Positions 40,409 to 52,414 of a stretch of 64,000 nt of DNA are shown one piece after another. The stretch comes from a virus. Below the pieces are notes generated by a model. The model was given only the letters and a program-made list of their open reading frames with translations. It had not been told where the DNA came from and did not search any database. The position numbers were made by a program, and so were the translations under genes. Numbering within the stretch: position 1 is the first letter of the stretch; the number at the start of each line of letters is the position of its first letter. The stretch lies in the IMG/VR virus record IMGVR_UViG_3300035698_014689, positions 1 to 64,000 of that record; one strand, 5' to 3'.

Positions 40409-43372
40409 TCATCCCGTCAATGTCCTGAATGCTTTCAATACCGTATCCGTACTTAGTTTCTCCATGCACTCTACTTTACAGTCGCTCTTAACCAAGTCCT
40501 TTTTGACTGATCCCCAGCAGTGGCAATCGTGCTCTGACTCAACGTTCACCAGCGTGTCATAAGAGGACAACCACGCCTTACTGCTTCCCCCGAATAGTGC
40601 CACTGTGGGCTTATCCAAAGCGAAAGCCAGATGAATCGCTAAAGTGTCAACGCTAACAACATACTGCATAGACTCGATATTTTCAACCAATTCTTTGAAG
40701 TTTTTTGATCTTTTATCCTTCAGACCCCGTATCAAAGGCGTTTTGGCTAATCCTAATTGATGACAGGTGAACCCGTCCGCTTTCAGTCTCCTCGCTAATT
40801 CCAGCCATTTGGACTTGGGCCACTCTTTTATTCGTCGATCAGCATCTTGGTTCATTTGCATGAAGAAGCCAACGCTTTTCTCCAAAGGCGTGGCGGAAAT
40901 ACGTTTTGGCAGATCAGAGATTGAACCACCCATTCCATTGACTATATGAACCTTCTGCTCCCAGCAACCGTTGTAATCCACTGGAATCTCCAAAGAGTCC
41001 TGAAGCGGATCAACGGACACCGATACATTATCCAAGAACATCTTGACGATCTCAAAACAGCCTTCACGTGTTTGATAATTTATCTTGGCTAAAGGGAAAA
41101 ATTCCTGTGTCTTTTTAACGAGGGCGAAGGACATATAAATATCTCCAGCTCCATACTCACGATGGAAGTTCACCCGCCCTTTTCGATAAGCCTCGGGATA
41201 AGAATCACCAAGTGTTTTCCGTATCAATTGGCGATACTTCGGAATGACAGAATCAATCGTACATTCCGCCATAACTTTTCTTTGCAGTTTGATGCCGTCA
41301 GTCTTCCTTATACGTGTGATTTCACTCCGTAAGGAGTCCAAGACAGGCATCCCAGCTTGCGACTCCACAAACCTCATTTCCTTCTCGAAAAAGATGGGAA
41401 GCGCACCAACTTTTGTGGCGATGACAGGAACGCCAAAATATCCAGCCTCAAGACAGACCATAGGAAAGCCCTCTTCCCTTGACAAAACAACGAGTGCGTC
41501 AATGCTTTTAAAGAACGTTCCAATATTGCGGCTTCTCGGCAGAAATTTAACTCTATCCGCATAACCTCCATCCTTGGCTATATTCTCAAGTAAAGTCAGG
41601 GAAATTTCATCGGTCTCCATTCCCTGCACGACAAGATTGCAATCAAGTGCACTCATGTTCTCTACAAGCCAACGGACGTTTTTATTGTAATCAAATCGTC
41701 CTAAGAAGCCTATCGTCGTGCCTTTCTCAAACATCTTTTTACTCTCGCCTGAAAAGGCCGTTACTGGCAGAGGATTCGGAATAAAGATAGACTCGGGAAT
41801 CTTCTCACTTATAACAGGGGACACACAGGTCGTGGAGTCGATAACGTCTCTCCACTTCTCAGTGAATTTCACGCCCTCCTCGTCATAGTGAGTATGAACT
41901 ACCCTGATTGATAAGGGTCTGAGATTTCTCATTGTCTTCAATGAGATGGGAATCGCTTCATTCATACCATACCACAGAACAGCATCCTGCTTCTCGAACT
42001 CATCAGTTGCCAGTTCAGAGCCACCTTTGAAGATAACGTTGTCAAAACGACTCAGGAGCTCCTCCTTGATTGACATCTGTTTTCTTGGTTCGATCGAATC
42101 AAAGGCGATCACGGTAACATCAAAGAACTTCTTCAGGCCCTCGGCGATCGTCATCATGCAGGTCTCCCCTCCACCTAGAACCATATGAGGGAAAACGACA
42201 GCTATCTTCTGAACCCGCTTAATAAAATTCAAATCTCTTTGGCGACTACTCTTCAAAGGCTGGCCCTTACGATCTTGGAACCACTGAGACTCGTGCTCAA
42301 TAGGCCCGACCGTTCCCTTAATGGCTTGAACCACATCCTGAGGACTTATCGACAGCATACAGGAGTAACCGTTATTGCAATCGGAAGGCCTCCTCCTTCG
42401 ACAACCCACACAATCAAAGCTGGACTTCAGCGGATGAACAGTAGCGTACCTTCCAGCAACAGCATGAGGACTTGAAGGGCCAAACAAAGCAATCGTCTCC
42501 AGTCCGATCATTCCAGCAAGATGCAGAAAACAGCTATCAACGCAGACGAAATAATTGCAGACAAACATTAAACGAACCTGCTCAAGAACGCTGAAACCAG
42601 TGCAGTCCACAACACCCTCTAATCCGAGACTATCCTGACCGAAAACAAGCACTTCGAAATCACTCCTCTTAACAATCTCTATGAACGCCCTCCAATTTTC
42701 CGCTGACCAGTCTCTGTGCAAAGCGGAGGATTTCGGATGTATTCCAATCACTTTTCTCTTTCCAAAATTGTGAGCTATCTCCAGCGTCTTGTCCAATGTT
42801 CTAGGCATGTTTATAGGAACCTTGGCGACTGGACAGTTATCAAGCCCTACCATCTGATACGCTCGTTCGTAATAATCGTGACCTGTGATTGTTTTATCCG
42901 TCTCAATCATAAAATCGGACAAGTCCAAAATCATATCAAACTGATCTTGGAAACGCACGTCGTTAGTTCGCTGTATGTCAACGAATTCATCGACAAAGGG
43001 GAATAATGGGGTGAAGGGTATAAAACTCTCACAAACGGCTAATACGACTCTGCATTCGACCTTTTTCAGGTATCGTACAACAGAGGTCACAATCAGAGTG
43101 TCTCCAATCCCACCAGCATTCTTAACGAGGATCGTCATCTTATGCCAATTTTTTGGTAAGGTTCTAAACACGTCCATAGGAGGCTTCGAGAATCCCTCAA
43201 GAAGTGTTTCCCCTTCAGAGGCTGGCTCGATAACTTCAATGAATTTACCTGTGAGTAAAAGCTTTCTTCCCTCGGGGGAACTGACCTCAGTGGGCTCCGC
43301 ATCGTCCAAACTGAGAACCTGCTTGGTGAAAGGCGTAGTATATCCTGATGCTCCAACTAGACGAATTAACAT
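40409..43372 (-). CDS. three-domain glycosyltransferase (GT9-GT4-GT9)
   Basis: 987 residues. After a small N-terminal domain, residues about 79-360 are heptosyltransferase-like GT9 (ILVKNAGGIGDTLIVTSVVR, HPKSSALHRDW, FVCVDSCFLHLAGMIGLETIALFGP). About 390-715 are GT4 (FPHMVLGGGETCMMTIAEGL, FLGRFDYNKNVRW, REEGFPMVCLEAGYFGVPVI). About 730-985 are a second GT9-like domain (GAGDIYMSFALVKK, VSVDTLAIHLAFALDKPTVALFGG). It sits between the capsid and connector genes with its own promoter. Confidence 0.9.
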   Translation of the reverse strand: MLIRLVGASGYTTPFTKQVLSLDDAEPTEVSSPEGRKLLLTGKFIEVIEPASEGETLLEGFSKPPMDVFRTLPKNWHKMTILVKNAGGIGDTLIVTSVVRYLKKVECRVVLAVCESFIPFTPLFPFVDEFVDIQRTNDVRFQDQFDMILDLSDFMIETDKTITGHDYYERAYQMVGLDNCPVAKVPINMPRTLDKTLEIAHNFGKRKVIGIHPKSSALHRDWSAENWRAFIEIVKRSDFEVLVFGQDSLGLEGVVDCTGFSVLEQVRLMFVCNYFVCVDSCFLHLAGMIGLETIALFGPSSPHAVAGRYATVHPLKSSFDCVGCRRRRPSDCNNGYSCMLSISPQDVVQAIKGTVGPIEHESQWFQDRKGQPLKSSRQRDLNFIKRVQKIAVVFPHMVLGGGETCMMTIAEGLKKFFDVTVIAFDSIEPRKQMSIKEELLSRFDNVIFKGGSELATDEFEKQDAVLWYGMNEAIPISLKTMRNLRPLSIRVVHTHYDEEGVKFTEKWRDVIDSTTCVSPVISEKIPESIFIPNPLPVTAFSGESKKMFEKGTTIGFLGRFDYNKNVRWLVENMSALDCNLVVQGMETDEISLTLLENIAKDGGYADRVKFLPRSRNIGTFFKSIDALVVLSREEGFPMVCLEAGYFGVPVIATKVGALPIFFEKEMRFVESQAGMPVLDSLRSEITRIRKTDGIKLQRKVMAECTIDSVIPKYRQLIRKTLGDSYPEAYRKGRVNFHREYGAGDIYMSFALVKKTQEFFPLAKINYQTREGCFEIVKMFLDNVSVSVDPLQDSLEIPVDYNGCWEQKVHIVNGMGGSISDLPKRISATPLEKSVGFFMQMNQDADRRIKEWPKSKWLELARRLKADGFTCHQLGLAKTPLIRGLKDKRSKNFKELVENIESMQYVVSVDTLAIHLAFALDKPTVALFGGSSKAWLSSYDTLVNVESEHDCHCWGSVKKDLVKSDCKVECMEKLSTDTVLKAFRTLTG

Positions 43373-46715: not shown

Positions 46716-46931
46716 TCACCTCTTTCCAAATAATGCGTGTCTTTTAGCGGTGACTTCCATATCAAAATCAATATAAGAAGTCAACGTCCAATAATCAAAA
46801 ATAGCTCGCAATTCACTGACAATCTCTTTTATACTCAATTCATAATAAACACCTCGATACTCAGGAATCATTCTATGAACAAAAAAATCTCTTTCCTCCC
46901 CTTTTTCAGGCTTTCTCCAATCATTTAACAT
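46716..46931 (-). CDS. hypothetical protein, 71 aa
   Basis: ATG at 46931 overlaps the end of the minor head gene, whose last codons supply AAGGAGG. The product (MLNDWRKPEKGEERDFFVHR, then LSIKEIVSELRAIFDYWTLT) is mixed charged and probably helical. It is the last gene of the terminase-portal operon. Unknown. Confidence 0.6.
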   Translation of the reverse strand: MLNDWRKPEKGEERDFFVHRMIPEYRGVYYELSIKEIVSELRAIFDYWTLTSYIDFDMEVTAKRHALFGKR

Positions 46932-49626
46932 ATAAAACCTCCTTAACTACCCATTCTTTCTCTGGAAATGGGGTTGGAAATACTCGATGGCTAATCAAAA
47001 CATCATCTAGTTTGACCTCTACATTATATTTAAAAATCTTCTCCCCTTTCTGAGCTACTTTAGCCGCTTGAGTAGAACCACCACTAAATTCAGAGACTCC
47101 TATTCCTCCTACCTTCTTAACTACTAAACCTAAATGGCCCTCCGTATCTGCTCTACCAAGTATTCCAATATCTCCATACATCTGTGAAAATACTTTCTGC
47201 GATGTATCCTGCATCAACGATGCCGCTAATCTGAATTTCTCACCATGCGCACCATCAAGTGCCGCTTCAAAAATCTTCAAAGAACTATGACTGGCATCAT
47301 CACCAAAATAATTCTGCAAATTAAAACTCTTAGCATAATTCGTCGGATGAACCTTATACGCCAATCCTTCAGGAACCCACGAAGCTGTTACATTATAATC
47401 ATTCCCATATACAGTCCACTCCCCTTTAAAACCTTCAATATAATCGTCCCATCCTTTCTGTTTCGCATAAGTAGACGCTTCAGCTCTTGTTGCAAAGGAT
47501 TTCGATTGCAAATGAGGATATGAAACATTCTCCGCACGTACCATTTTATCTATATCAGCAGTCCCATTAAGCAAATCGAATTCAGTGCCTACACCCAATT
47601 TTGATGCCTCTTCTCTCATCCCTGTTCTAAGGGCCTGAGCCGCACTATAAGATTGCTCCTCTGTTTCAGCCAAAGCCGTCTTATCAATCAATCCATCCAA
47701 TGGCGAAACCACAGGAATCATAATTCCACCTGCTGGCCCACCAGTCCACGGCTGTAAAACAAGAGCCGGATCACTTAAATCAGGCTCTTCCACACATCTG
47801 CAATTATGACTTATTACACCATTAGCAATATAACTAAAATTATCTTCAACATGAAAGTTATAGAGGGACTGAACCCTAGATGTTTTCTTATATTCAATAC
47901 TTTTAATAGGAACCTCAATAAACTCATAAGCTCCTTCATGGTTCAAAGATAATAAAGACTGCTCATCTGATTCAATAAATTCATTTTTCCTCCCATATAA
48001 CCTATGTACAATCACATGGTCGGGGAATGCACTTAAAATCTCCACATCTCTTTTATGTTGCTTCTCTTTATCCTGATGCCAATACCATCCATCTATCTCT
48101 ATAAACCTCTTTTCGGATGGAACATAAAAATCTACAAATCTATTCCCTACAGAAAACTGTTCCTGAAAAACAACACCGCTCTTAACCAAGGAGTCACGAA
48201 ACAAAACCTCAATTTTCGTGGGGCCTTTCTTATTCCAACATGCGGGCTTACCTATTTTCCATAAATCAGAGGCTTTCATATAACCCCCTTCTCCATACTT
48301 CTCAACCAAACATTTGCGAGCACGTAAAGTTATACCATCAGCGTCTCTTACTCCTGAAGCATATTCACTCTTTAATTGCTCAGTCGTTTTCTTAGATGTA
48401 TTCTTTCGATGCTCAGGGTCCTTCCATTGATTAGAAGATGAGACATGACTTGAACAACTACGAGAACAATACTTGCGATAGTAGGGCATTTTCTTTCCAC
48501 ATAAAGGGCATCTACTTGCTCTCACATAAAGGACATCCTCAAGAGTCAGATTCTCAGCATTAACCCATCCCCCAGAAGTCAAGAATGGATGCTCCTCAGT
48601 AACAACTAAACTATTAGAAGCATACTTATTCTTCTCTCCAAATTTAATCCTCACAATTGGACGACCACTAGGAATCTTATACTTTCCTAAATAAGTCTCA
48701 AGAACCCTCTTATATTCTCCTGAATGAGTTAATACCAAATTTCCTACTTGAATATCCTTAATCTGCTTCTTCCCTTCTGAAGTCCAAATACCTACCTGAG
48801 GGTCAATGAAGCAATTTATTGCATCCGGTCCGTCTCCTACGTGCATCGCACCACTAGGATAAGATTCGGCAATTGGAATAAAACCCACGCTCTCATTGGC
48901 CTCGTGAGCGGGTCTGACACGCAAATCTCCCACAGTGAACCAACGTTTTCTCTCCACTCCAGAACGTTTGAACATCTCATAACGAGCCGTTCCAATAGCT
49001 GTCTGCACCTCTGTCTGCACAATCTTATACGCCCTTGCTGGATCAATACCCATCACCTCGATGACTTTCATCGTATCATAAACAGTATCACCGTTCTTAA
49101 AAATACCAGTGGCAATCTTCGCCTGAGCATTGTGAACCATTGTGTCAGTTGTGATCTTTGCCATCTCCAAAGCTCGTTGATCTAATTGCAGAATCAGCTC
49201 CTCGTCGGTCAGATCGAAAACGTAGGTGACTGGATCAGCCTTGCGTAGAACCCTCAAAGACTCAAAGGAGGAATCAATGCCAAATTCGAAGGCTTCCTCG
49301 TTCATTTCTCTCAAGAACTCTTTTACAGGCGTTGTGTCGGGATAATCAAAGGTCTTAAAGATGTCCTCGGCAAATTTCAGCCCTGCCTGCCTACGACTGG
49401 TTGGATTACGTATAACAGTGGACTCTTTATACGCCTCAAAGAACGCACGCTGTATTTTCAGCTGAAGTAATTGATCTGTGATAGGTTTCCACCACGAGGC
49501 GTATGTCTTCATAGTGGGAGGAATATAAGACCGTTCAAGCGTCATCCTCTCACCGCCAGTAGCAACCTTACTCAGCAAATAAAAATGAATCTGCCGACGT
49601 ATCTCATATTTCTCGGTACTATTCAT
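46921..49626 (-). CDS. minor head protein (Mu gpF/SPP1 gp7-like) interrupted by an intein
   Basis: 901 residues. The N-extein (1-271) has the head-morphogenesis fold ending in RVRPAHEANESVGFIPIAE and GDGPDAIN. After the intein (272-608) the C-extein resumes CRCVEEPDLSDP, restoring the family's conserved INCRC motif. The last 100 residues (YNVEVKLDDVLISHRVFPTP FPEKEW) faintly recall ADP-ribosyltransferase domains sometimes fused to this family. The spliced protein would be 564 residues. It starts 1 nt after the portal stop. Confidence 0.85.
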   Translation of the reverse strand: MNSTEKYEIRRQIHFYLLSKVATGGERMTLERSYIPPTMKTYASWWKPITDQLLQLKIQRAFFEAYKESTVIRNPTSRRQAGLKFAEDIFKTFDYPDTTPVKEFLREMNEEAFEFGIDSSFESLRVLRKADPVTYVFDLTDEELILQLDQRALEMAKITTDTMVHNAQAKIATGIFKNGDTVYDTMKVIEVMGIDPARAYKIVQTEVQTAIGTARYEMFKRSGVERKRWFTVGDLRVRPAHEANESVGFIPIAESYPSGAMHVGDGPDAINCFIDPQVGIWTSEGKKQIKDIQVGNLVLTHSGEYKRVLETYLGKYKIPSGRPIVRIKFGEKNKYASNSLVVTEEHPFLTSGGWVNAENLTLEDVLYVRASRCPLCGKKMPYYRKYCSRSCSSHVSSSNQWKDPEHRKNTSKKTTEQLKSEYASGVRDADGITLRARKCLVEKYGEGGYMKASDLWKIGKPACWNKKGPTKIEVLFRDSLVKSGVVFQEQFSVGNRFVDFYVPSEKRFIEIDGWYWHQDKEKQHKRDVEILSAFPDHVIVHRLYGRKNEFIESDEQSLLSLNHEGAYEFIEVPIKSIEYKKTSRVQSLYNFHVEDNFSYIANGVISHNCRCVEEPDLSDPALVLQPWTGGPAGGIMIPVVSPLDGLIDKTALAETEEQSYSAAQALRTGMREEASKLGVGTEFDLLNGTADIDKMVRAENVSYPHLQSKSFATRAEASTYAKQKGWDDYIEGFKGEWTVYGNDYNVTASWVPEGLAYKVHPTNYAKSFNLQNYFGDDASHSSLKIFEAALDGAHGEKFRLAASLMQDTSQKVFSQMYGDIGILGRADTEGHLGLVVKKVGGIGVSEFSGGSTQAAKVAQKGEKIFKYNVEVKLDDVLISHRVFPTPFPEKEWVVKEVLYVK
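47803..48813 (-). other. intein with VSR-like nuclease in the minor head gene
   Basis: 337 residues from Cys1 (CFIDPQVGIWTSEG) to the C-terminal HN, with Cys as the +1 residue. Block B is visible as VTEEHPFLTSGG and the C-terminal block as YNFHVEDNFSYIANGVISHN. The nuclease part has a zinc-like CPLCGKK...CSRSC pair followed by IEVLFRDSL, FVDFYVPSEKRFIEIDG and HRLYGRKNEF, a VSR/EDxHD-type core rather than LAGLIDADG. Confidence 0.9.
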
Positions 49627-49627
49627 T

Positions 49628-52414
49628 CTATCCTTCAGCCATCTTCTCGGCGATTTTATTCAATTTATCCCCAGCCAATTTCATCTCCGCTTCTGTTGGC
49701 ATCGCTTGAATCTCATCAACGAATAAAGGAATACCGCCAGTGAGAATAAAAGGCTTGTCCCCACCTTTAACTGGAGGCCCTAATTGAGCTATGTCACGGA
49801 TGTCATTTATACTGATCACACCCTTCTCCATGAACGCCAGCAGGTTCTCCCGCTGATTCGCTTTATCTGTGACATCCAAAGATTCGAAAACGATCTTAAC
49901 TGAAGTCGTTCCAAGTCCGTAATGGAAAAGCCTAGAAAGCATCTTCTCCCATCTACGTTGAAGAGGATCGACAATACGGTTCTTATAGTTGCTGGACTGT
50001 GCATCACCTTTACCAGAGCCAAGACTGGCTGAATCGGTCATCCCGACAATCGCGGCAGACATACCATGAGCAACCAAAATTGCTTCTTGATTATTCTTGC
50101 GTGTATCCTGAAAAGAACCCTCCTGCGTATCATCGGTCAACTTCTTAAATTCAACCTTGACATCCCCTCCAGCGGCTGGGATAGGAATGACGAGTGTTTT
50201 ATGCGCCTGCCCTTTTATATCCTGAGCGAAGTAACGCTGGATGACTTCCTTGACTTCGTTGGAAAGTTTCGCCCCAGTGATAATGACTGCATACTGCGGA
50301 ACTGCGTTATGATCGAAAAACTGCAAGAAAAAATCACGTATGTTGATATTCCCCATAATACTACCTATCGCAGGAATCACGTCGGGGACGCCATAATACA
50401 TCGACTTCGGATGTGGCTTTGTCAGCATCATTACTTCCGTCGCTGAATCTTGAAGTCTCGATACATCACTATTCAAATCATCCTTACCTTTCATGTTCCA
50501 TTTTCCAGCACTGAATTTGCCGTCCTTAGCGGGGTCGAAAGGCAGAGGATTATTATTTATGTCGGTTCTGTTCGGACTCAAAAGTTTTCTTCCAAAAGGC
50601 AGGTAGTAACGATAAGTGCCACTCTTGCCCGAATTTGCTCCCCCCAGTTCCGCGAAACCCGTCCAACCTTTAAGGACGCGCATCCGAGCCACAGGAATAT
50701 GATAGAGCCTTCGGATTTTCTTGTCCAGTGCTCGAACAACCTCTATAAAGCAATAACCCACAGACTCATAGTCAGTGGCGGCTTTTTCGAGCACACCCTC
50801 GAAGCGGTCGTTCTCATTGCAGTTCTCAATGAAATCCTCGACCTCAACACTCTGAGACGAGGATTCTGTGTCCTTCTCATCCTTATTCTTTTTAGCGATG
50901 ACATATTCACGACCAACGGCATCCATAACTTTCGTCTTCACGCAATTGTGAGTGACCAAGCCATTCGCTACAAAAGTGTGTGAACCCTCGACCTCAAGAT
51001 TGTAAACAGAGCCAGAAAAAGATTTCTGTTCAGAACTGATGACTTTTCTCAAAAGAACCTCACCAATACCTAATAGTGAAGTAAAACAATTTCTTTTCCG
51101 AGAATTAGTACATGACCCCACAGAATTGGAAAGGAAATCCTTAGCATCCTGACCTCTCAAATCAAGTCTATACACTCTTCTTTTTGAAATGGGCTGTTGC
51201 TCATAGACAGAAACATCATATCTCAAATAAGATAAAAGTGTGAATAACTGTTTAGATAATTCTTTGGAGGTAGTAACGAAAATACAATCACCATTCTTAT
51301 TGATATGGCCATCACCATCAAAATAAGAACGCAGAAGAATTAAAATCTGTCTCAACTCCAAACGAGCTAAGAAGTCTTTCTGAATTCTTTTTCCATAGCA
51401 AAACTTTCCACCCAAAAAGGTCATTAACTTATGAACATACGGTTTCGAACAAACAATCTTGCCTGTATTTTTCTCCTCATCAAAGTAAACCTTCGAAGTG
51501 GAGTCGAAACAATTACTTAATCCATTCATCACTCTTTGATGATAATCCTTCTCATCTTTGTGAAAAGTGAATACAGTCGAATAATTACATTGATATAAAT
51601 TACGTTTATTTATGAACTCATAATCAGAGCAACTTCCTTCCGCCAAATAAAACCCCAGTAATTCACAGAGCTCATCCGAGGCGACAATCTTCTGTCCCTG
51701 AAAAACGAGTGCTGTTTCATCAACCATTTTCCATAAAGGCAGGGAACCAACGATAAAATCCCCCACAGCAATCTCGGATGCGTTTTTCCAAGAAAGTAAT
51801 TCATTCGCCTTATCACTTAAAAGTACACCCTCTCCCGATAAGCCACTGACTCTTTTTTCTCTTGTTATCTTCGCTCTAAAATCAGCAAATGAACTGTCAA
51901 CTACTAAATAAGGATGCTCTGATGTAGAACTTATTGTTCTCAATCCATGAACATCTAAAAGAACAAGCTCCTCCTCCACATCAAATTTCATTACATCTGT
52001 TACTTCATAAAAATCATTGTTATGTGAAAGAACTCTTTCCCCCTTCTTAATAGAAGCAATAGAACGACTCTCTAAATCTTTCGTTAAAACAGTGACATCA
52101 TCGGTAAAGCAACGATAATGAACCTCGTCAACATCCAAAAACTTCGCCATCGTCTCAGGATCAAAGGGAGGGTAAACAATATCTTGTGACGTGACCTCGT
52201 CATCCTCGTCCTTGGTGTCGGGCTGATTAGAACCTTCCATCTCCTTCTCGATCAACGTCTTGGCTTGCTGACCCTTCTTCATCAAATCCTGTGCCGATAT
52301 GACCTCTCCATCCGACATAATAAAAGCAGAGTCCACAATCGGCTCATCACTTACAGAACTTTTCGTCATTACCTTATCTCTTTTCCGACCTACGCGTCTG
52401 TGTAACTTTCTCAT
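49628..52414 (-). CDS. portal protein interrupted by an intein
   Basis: 928 residues. The N-extein (1-101) ends FLDVDEVHYR; the C-extein starts CVKTKVMDAVGREY, a conserved portal stretch. Later portal features include YESVGYCFIEVVRALDKKI, LYHIPVARMRVLKG, YYGVPDVIPAIGSI and a KNRIVDPLQRRWEKML stem region. The spliced length of 539 is normal for portals. The start at 52414 has GGAG 6 nt upstream and follows the terminase gene by 13 nt. Confidence 0.88.
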   Translation of the reverse strand: MRKLHRRVGRKRDKVMTKSSVSDEPIVDSAFIMSDGEVISAQDLMKKGQQAKTLIEKEMEGSNQPDTKDEDDEVTSQDIVYPPFDPETMAKFLDVDEVHYRCFTDDVTVLTKDLESRSIASIKKGERVLSHNNDFYEVTDVMKFDVEEELVLLDVHGLRTISSTSEHPYLVVDSSFADFRAKITREKRVSGLSGEGVLLSDKANELLSWKNASEIAVGDFIVGSLPLWKMVDETALVFQGQKIVASDELCELLGFYLAEGSCSDYEFINKRNLYQCNYSTVFTFHKDEKDYHQRVMNGLSNCFDSTSKVYFDEEKNTGKIVCSKPYVHKLMTFLGGKFCYGKRIQKDFLARLELRQILILLRSYFDGDGHINKNGDCIFVTTSKELSKQLFTLLSYLRYDVSVYEQQPISKRRVYRLDLRGQDAKDFLSNSVGSCTNSRKRNCFTSLLGIGEVLLRKVISSEQKSFSGSVYNLEVEGSHTFVANGLVTHNCVKTKVMDAVGREYVIAKKNKDEKDTESSSQSVEVEDFIENCNENDRFEGVLEKAATDYESVGYCFIEVVRALDKKIRRLYHIPVARMRVLKGWTGFAELGGANSGKSGTYRYYLPFGRKLLSPNRTDINNNPLPFDPAKDGKFSAGKWNMKGKDDLNSDVSRLQDSATEVMMLTKPHPKSMYYGVPDVIPAIGSIMGNINIRDFFLQFFDHNAVPQYAVIITGAKLSNEVKEVIQRYFAQDIKGQAHKTLVIPIPAAGGDVKVEFKKLTDDTQEGSFQDTRKNNQEAILVAHGMSAAIVGMTDSASLGSGKGDAQSSNYKNRIVDPLQRRWEKMLSRLFHYGLGTTSVKIVFESLDVTDKANQRENLLAFMEKGVISINDIRDIAQLGPPVKGGDKPFILTGGIPLFVDEIQAMPTEAEMKLAGDKLNKIAEKMAEG
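50945..52111 (-). other. intein with LAGLIDADG endonuclease in the portal gene
   Basis: 389 residues from Cys1 (CFTDDVTVLTKD) to VTHN, with Cys +1. Block B: ISSTSEHPYLVVD. Two LAGLIDADG-type motifs: LLGFYLAEGS (about 151-160) and LRSYFDGDGHI (about 260-270). C-terminal blocks: VYNLEVEGSHTFVANGLVTHN region. All splicing residues are present, so it should be active both in splicing and in homing. Confidence 0.95.

Follow-up and report, generated by a model that had tools for sequence, protein, structure and literature searches.

Two putative homing inteins with different nuclease classes in the adjacent MuF-type head and portal genes of an intein-rich phage

The first 64,000 positions of the virus record IMGVR_UViG_3300035698_014689 of IMG/VR (the window; the full record, G000, comprises 94,886 bases) contain two adjacent genes on the minus strand, encoding a MuF-type minor head protein and a portal protein, each of which harbours a long in-frame segment with the hallmarks of an intein. 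The locus raises the question of whether these segments are inteins, whether they were acquired separately and whether their presence in neighbouring head genes is of any significance. The explanation favoured here, with a probability of roughly 90%, is that each gene carries a separately acquired class 1 homing intein, the precursors being predicted to splice to a 564-residue MuF protein and a 539-residue portal. The two inteins are ordinary in kind, within an intein-rich phage. In what follows, L and a number denote a locus from scans of a viral collection, and G and a number a virus record; a slash within a motif marks a splice point. The features of the locus are as follows.

46921-49626, minus strand: MuF-type minor head protein precursor, 901 residues (564 after predicted splicing); open frame
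48814-49626, minus strand: head protein N-extein, 271 residues, ending ...GPDAIN
47803-48813, minus strand: head intein, 337 residues, HINT + Cys4 + EDxHD/Vsr-type nuclease; first residue Cys, last two His-Asn
48520-48813, minus strand: N-terminal HINT part of the head intein, about residues 1-98, with T72xxH75 (from alignment and model)
48454-48510, minus strand: Cys4 motif CPLC...YCSRSC of the head intein (C102, C105, C116, C120), probable zinc-binding site
47941-48219, minus strand: EDxHD/Vsr (DUF559) nuclease core of the head intein, about residues 199-291 (E202, D228, E239, D241, H246, R255)
47803-47928, minus strand: C-terminal HINT part of the head intein, about residues 296-337, ending VISHN
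46921-47802, minus strand: head protein C-extein, 293 residues, first residues CRCVEEP
49628-52414, minus strand: portal protein precursor, 928 residues (539 after predicted splicing)
52112-52414, minus strand: portal N-extein, 101 residues, ending ...VDEVHYR
50945-52111, minus strand: portal intein, 389 residues, HINT + LAGLIDADG nuclease; first residue Cys, end VTHN
51635-51658, minus strand: first LAGLIDADG-type motif of the portal intein, LGFYLAEG, residues 152-159 (read from sequence and aligned with two inteins of Eggerthella phage LE2-3)
51308-51337, minus strand: second LAGLIDADG-type motif, LLRSYFDGDG, residues 259-268, within the Pfam LAGLIDADG_3 match
49628-50944, minus strand: portal C-extein, 438 residues, first residues CVKTKV

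Judged by sequence, both segments are insertions into otherwise continuous host proteins. The match of the head precursor to the Pfam family Phage_Mu_F covers profile positions 12-86 at 23.5 bits; upon removal of the intein in silico it extends over 12-110 of 112 at 32.2 bits, so that the host protein passes the cut-off of 29.6 once spliced, and the match to phrog_2468 rises from 46.3 to 57.4 bits. Removal of the portal intein raised the phrog_12 score from 137.9 (profile positions 116-428) to 145.0 (69-429) and that of Phage_portal from 81.2 to 84.0. Used as a query, the spliced portal matched 179 phage records, and 59 of the 60 listed span the splice point in a single piece; the spliced head protein matched 212 records at expectation values (E) of up to 0.1, which are weak matches, and all 25 of those listed extend over the splice point, in some cases by no more than three residues. 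Since full-length relatives exist and in silico splicing restores the family matches, neither intein is a chance feature. Alignment of the exteins with intein-free homologues, proposed as a check in an original prediction made from the sequence of the window, revealed such homologues at both sites. The same prediction had placed both insertions at conserved motifs; this is strongly borne out for IN/CRC, which marks the end of the Phage_Mu_F domain, and more weakly for HYR/C, as two aligned Streptomyces phage portals carry HAAAVKAKV and HYSAVKAKV at the position of HYR/CVKTKV and the +1 cysteine is not conserved. For annotators, MuF and portal proteins of 900-1000 residues can be intein-inflated.

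The frames, boundaries and spliced lengths given in the original prediction for the two inteins were exact to the base. The boundaries read IN/CFIDPQ...VISHN/CRC in the head protein and HYR/CFTDDV...VTHN/CVK in the portal, and both inteins display the canonical splice residues claimed for them, namely Cys1, a terminal His-Asn and a +1 Cys. The NCBIfam model intein_Cterm scores above its cut-off in both. The portal precursor matches Pfam Intein_splicing (39.8 bits; cut-off 35.8) and LAGLIDADG_3 (28.6 bits; cut-off 22.5), and the head precursor PT-HINT (28.2 bits; cut-off 27.7) and DUF559 (22.2 bits; cut-off 20.6). In block B, T72xxH75 of the head intein is invariant in 14 of 14 rows of an alignment comprising the window's sequence and 13 relatives, from which the head-intein profile was built, while the portal intein carries STSEH, a T-x-x-H pattern read from the sequence. 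The G+C content is 37.1% in the head intein versus 43.5% in its exteins, and 36.3% in the portal intein versus 45.9%.

An AlphaFold model of the head intein computed from the 14-row alignment reached a mean predicted local distance difference test (pLDDT) score of 78.3, and fold searches with it place inteins at the top (gp41-1, 6qaz, Foldseek E of 6.1e-6; VIA-align Z of up to 17.8); as modelled, the head intein has the HINT fold. All 50 VIA-align rows shown are HINT-fold entries, and for this reason the assignment of the nuclease relies on a sequence profile instead of fold. Against solved structures, the profile retrieved 3r3p ('Mobile intron protein'; E of 1.4e-11), which is presumably I-Bth0305I, 3hrl (4.3e-10) and Vsr (1cw0; 2.6e-4), indicating that the nuclease is related by sequence to I-Bth0305I and Vsr. 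The E...D...ExDGxxWH residues of EDxHD nucleases are present as E202, D228, E239, D241 and H246; D228, E239, D241, H246 and R255 are invariant in 14 of 14 rows and E202 nearly so, and all are intact in the window's intein. As for the last Asp of the 'EDxHD' word, the window, L043 and L056 have RD, and the remaining rows RQ. The Cys4 site named in the original prediction also holds, C102, C105, C116 and C120 being invariant in all 14 aligned sequences, the window's included, and the motif probably binds zinc.

In the portal intein, both acidic residues of the two LAGLIDADG motifs are kept, as read from the sequence and the alignment, and a search against solved structures retrieved PI-PkoII (2cw7; E of 1.8e-5); the putative HINT fold of the portal intein is assigned by profile. 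The division into a LAGLIDADG nuclease in the portal and an EDxHD/Vsr-like one in the head protein, as originally proposed, is upheld by the LAGLIDADG_3 and 3r3p matches. The portal intein is 26% identical to the portal intein of Eggerthella phage LE2-3 and 29% identical to the second intein of that phage. A scan with an alignment of the three inteins yielded 12 loci, and host genes varied in the ten examined; those named, from a reading of their sequence, are methyltransferase-like (L073 and L074), peptidase-like (L075) and portal-like with the intein at a different position (L072).

The relatives of the head intein behave otherwise. They were collected by scanning the viral collection with single sequences and with alignments, the scans being seeded on intein motifs and not on exteins, and the widest of these returned 39 loci: 28 with the N-terminal HINT part, two cut by the contig start with the C-terminal HINT part and nine with the nuclease only. 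Judging from the sequence at the site, 29 of the 30 HINT-bearing loci lie in MuF-type head genes, the exception being L055. These 29 loci represent 16 distinct MuF alleles, to which the window adds a seventeenth; the count omits the fragments L053, L057 and L059, which are cut by contig ends, L017-L021 are left out of the host-gene tally, their open frame being identical to that of L016, and L023-L034 of an earlier scan are loci recovered again in the widest one. Phage_Mu_F scores above the cut-off in 11 of the 16 host alleles, made up of seven of the nine proteins in one search and L023/L043, L026/L044, L031/L050 and L033/L052 in another. In L038 it reaches 19.6 bits, under the cut-off, the domain being interrupted by an additional mini-intein, and the hosts of L016, L022, L034/L054 and L048, for which Pfam returned nothing, match PHROG head-morphogenesis and minor-head families. 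The scans detect pattern-bearing loci only, and the restriction of the lineage to MuF genes may not be exclusive. A genome scan using the head-intein alignment gave only two matches, both nuclease-only.

Two members of this collection deserve separate mention. L055 (5845-7215) holds a distant EDxHD-type intein, 23% identical, in a short non-MuF gene whose C-extein (CPVDTGRLRAS) resembles that of an HK97 gp10-type neck protein; a PHROG search with the 52 residues on the N side of this host returned nothing. A 42.8-kb virus contig (L058/L069, G017) carries, besides a nuclease-reduced MuF mini-intein, another intein that interrupts a clamp-loader-like gene (LDE/C...HN/CHKL).

The window's two inteins thus have different kin with different habits, the EDxHD relatives being MuF-bound and the LAGLIDADG relatives residing in unrelated genes, which supports separate acquisition and agrees with the independent invasions of the original prediction. 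When the portal C-extein, the terminase and the portal intein were each used as a single-protein query against the viral collection, no near relatives of the phage emerged, and gain or loss of either intein among such relatives is consequently not visible.

According to the favoured explanation, the HINT domain of each precursor would excise its intein after translation: an N-S acyl shift at Cys1 would be followed by transfer of the N-extein to the +1 Cys, cyclization of the terminal Asn and joining of the exteins, yielding the 564-residue MuF-type minor head protein and the 539-residue portal. The central domain of each intein would act as a homing endonuclease, cutting intein-free alleles of co-infecting phages, whose repair would copy the intein in. 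The head intein would employ an EDxHD/Vsr-type nuclease with Cys4, whereas in the portal intein this role would fall to a LAGLIDADG nuclease with two motifs, the two inteins having been acquired separately. Both inteins are probably active, and the dependence of head assembly on both splicing events, as originally claimed, can reasonably be inferred.

Several observations weigh against this explanation. The head precursor scores 30.8 bits against Intein_splicing, under the cut-off of 35.8, and the C-terminal block of the head intein, VEDNFSYIANG, has a Phe where relatives carry Asn, Glu or His, a change by which splicing might be weakened. The residue of 3r3p aligned to D228 is not an Asp. For the portal intein, AlphaFold prediction from the single sequence gave a pLDDT of 34 and the model was discarded. 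Neither intein has a close relative, which makes selection on their own nucleases unmeasurable. Splicing, cleavage, homing and the need for splicing in head assembly are, moreover, all deduced from sequence.

The alternative that survives best, while still unlikely, is that the inteins splice but their nucleases are dead, inherited passengers of a homing process that is over. Such an outcome has precedents within the head-intein lineage, in which L034/L054 and L058, both of 197 residues, retain little or nothing of the nuclease core, and in the MuF intein of Gordonia phages, which occupies the window's site without a recognizable nuclease. On the other hand, the window's head intein keeps D228, E239, D241, H246, R255, the Cys4 motif and E202, and the portal intein retains both acidic LAGLIDADG residues. 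For one close pair of relatives (L016/L022) the ratio of nonsynonymous to synonymous substitution rates (dN/dS) amounts to 0.13 for the nuclease region and 0.11 for the HINT parts, pointing to purifying selection on the nuclease. Of the other five pairs, four were saturated, and L042/L045, in which synonymous change approached saturation, yielded 0.15 and 0.37.

A second alternative, that adjacency is functional, one nuclease dragging both inteins along or the two having invaded jointly, is improbable. Extein DNA of 2131 bp separates the insertion points, a plausible co-conversion distance, so that a cut at one site might, through its repair, bring the other intein along; co-conversion of flanks is mentioned in the literature (PMC3943268). 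Against this, no portal intein was found beside an intein of the EDxHD lineage in any of 17 virus records (the lineage and the outlier L055) by a search with intein profiles, most of these records being fragments and the profile having missed the intein-holding G013. Furthermore, with five intein-bearing genes among 100-150, an adjacent pair arose in 19-13% of shuffles, in which genes were taken as equal and unclustered and their number was assumed, and adjacency as a special event was rejected on this basis.

The original prediction had also called the arrangement uncommon, a view that, as worded, lacks support in light of the chance of adjacency, the MuF and portal inteins of other phages and the further inteins of the record. 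In total, the record holds six inteins, spread over five genes and representing three nuclease classes; four of the inteins lie beyond the window. The RecA gene (G000:69277-72315, L006 5277-8315, minus strand) carries two, an HNH_3 intein at the P-loop (PES/C...HN/CGKT) and a LAGLIDADG_3 intein (VEG/C...HN/T), and a helicase gene of superfamily 2 (ResIII/DEAD; G000:74015-76591, L006 10015-12591, minus strand) a LAGLIDADG intein ending HN/S. A DNA-ligase-like gene (G000:85485-87552, L007 5485-7552, minus strand; KEDG/C...HN/CRYS) contains an HNH intein whose nuclease region is interrupted by a frame shift; this shift might be an assembly error, real decay or the mark of a two-piece gene that splices in trans. 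A probable free-standing GIY-YIG homing endonuclease with a helix-turn-helix motif is encoded at G000:66484-67383 (L006 2484-3383, minus strand; 19.1 bits, under the cut-off of 22.6). Searches of the record found no tRNA genes, and no Rfam match to group I introns at gathering score across its 94,886 bases. Downstream of the capsid gene, positions 40409-43372 of the window encode a 987-residue protein in which a heptosyltransferase (GT9) domain is combined with a GT4 glycosyltransferase domain.

Less probable still is a role of the inteins as post-translational switches, delaying portal and MuF maturation so that metal or redox state sets the time of head assembly, with a MuF-motif cysteine as the splice point. 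Indeed, every one of the 17 distinct MuF alleles, counting that of the window, has such a cysteine at +1 (in L052 as judged from its N side only), and a regulatory role has been suggested in print for the Mu F intein of Methylococcus (Ward et al., 2004; PMC517821). Most of the MuF and portal homologues found are nevertheless intein-free, so that a switch is not generally needed, and the +1 Cys is chemically required, so that the site alone proves nothing. The weakest alternative, that the MuF HINT domain is a toxin-processing PT-HINT like those of polymorphic toxins and releases the C-terminal part, draws on a PT-HINT score just above cut-off, on the frequent presence of effector domains at the C-terminus of MuF proteins and on the ART-PolyVal domain of the L033 MuF protein, and is highly improbable given the intein-like +1 Cys and penultimate His, the interruption of Phage_Mu_F exactly between N and CRC with its restoration to profile position 110 of 112 upon removal, the mere 12-22 residues that follow the segment in some relatives and the homing-type nuclease inside it; this identity was rejected on placement, the segment lying inside the Phage_Mu_F domain and ending HN/C. 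The C-terminal 293 residues of the window's MuF protein (46921-47802) have no Pfam match of their own after in silico splicing, and their end (FPTPFPEKEWVVKEV) presumably resembles ADP-ribosyltransferase-type MuF tails.

Beyond the explanation of two separately acquired homing inteins, the head-intein lineage is of interest in itself. In aligned MuF domains, the +1 Cys of its members falls on a cysteine of the MuF motif CxxC...CxC: the third in the window, L038, L041, L042, L044, L045, L050, L056 and L058 (N/CRC or its like), with L052 judged by its N side; the fourth in L037, L039 and L043; and the second of CxxC in L016, L022, L034/L054 and L048. Part of this pattern is expected, since splicing chemistry favours Cys at +1. 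The single MuF gene of L038 (3945-6704) holds two inteins, an EDxHD intein at HPY/CRC and, at the first Cys of CxxC, a 129-residue HINT-only mini-intein that may or may not belong to the lineage. Comparison of the 14 complete members with one another shows greater similarity between the inteins than between the aligned MuF regions for 87 of the 91 pairs (median identity of 40% versus 22%), which indicates lateral spread. Whether these contiguous EDxHD + Cys4 inteins constitute a distinct, undescribed lineage, specialized in the MuF genes of unrelated phages and moved between neighbouring motif cysteines (three of the four as +1, with the L038 mini-intein, a possible member, at the remaining one), is an evenly poised question. 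If so, the lineage would provide a natural series for a homing nuclease shifting its target by a few codons within one domain, the window's phage being one carrier. With one nuclease type, one protein domain, three micro-sites and members with and without the nuclease, it is worth following, as site choice, target shift and nuclease loss would be testable within a single system.

Comparable arrangements are found in several known systems. Eggerthella phage LE2-3 resembles the window in having inteins in its portal gene and in a gene close by, and its LAGLIDADG-like portal intein lies, by eye, within about one codon of the window's portal site. PI-PkoII, presumably archaeal and from a different host gene, is like the window's portal intein a LAGLIDADG intein endonuclease. 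Portal inteins have been described in cluster C1 mycobacteriophages, a likeness to the window at the level of the host gene (Kelley et al., 2016; PMC5050341). The Mu gpF (MuF) intein of a Mu-like prophage of Methylococcus capsulatus shares its head-protein family with the window's head intein and is described, in the account given of it, as lacking a recognizable endonuclease (Ward et al., 2004; PMC517821). Closer still in position, Gordonia phages SchottB, Lennon, Barsten and relatives (Kroosvirus and Vividuovirus; nine phage records, three proteins examined) carry a MuF intein at the window's site, VIN/C...HN/CRC, whose N-terminal HINT part is up to 39.6% identical. Unlike the window's head intein, these 275-residue inteins have no recognized EDxHD, Cys4 or LAGLIDADG element (tested in SchottB), and the adjoining portals, in those examined, are intein-free. 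The nuclease domain of the head intein is shared with homing endonucleases of the I-Bth0305I type, I-Bth0305I itself being a mobile-intron nuclease, and EDxHD nucleases reportedly also occur in the 'fractured genes' with split inteins of Dassa et al. in 2009. Literature searches retrieved no description of a MuF gene interrupted by an EDxHD intein, and the 2009 study might hold such a case. In contrast to the mobile intron and the split inteins, the head intein of the window houses its EDxHD nuclease inside one contiguous intein.

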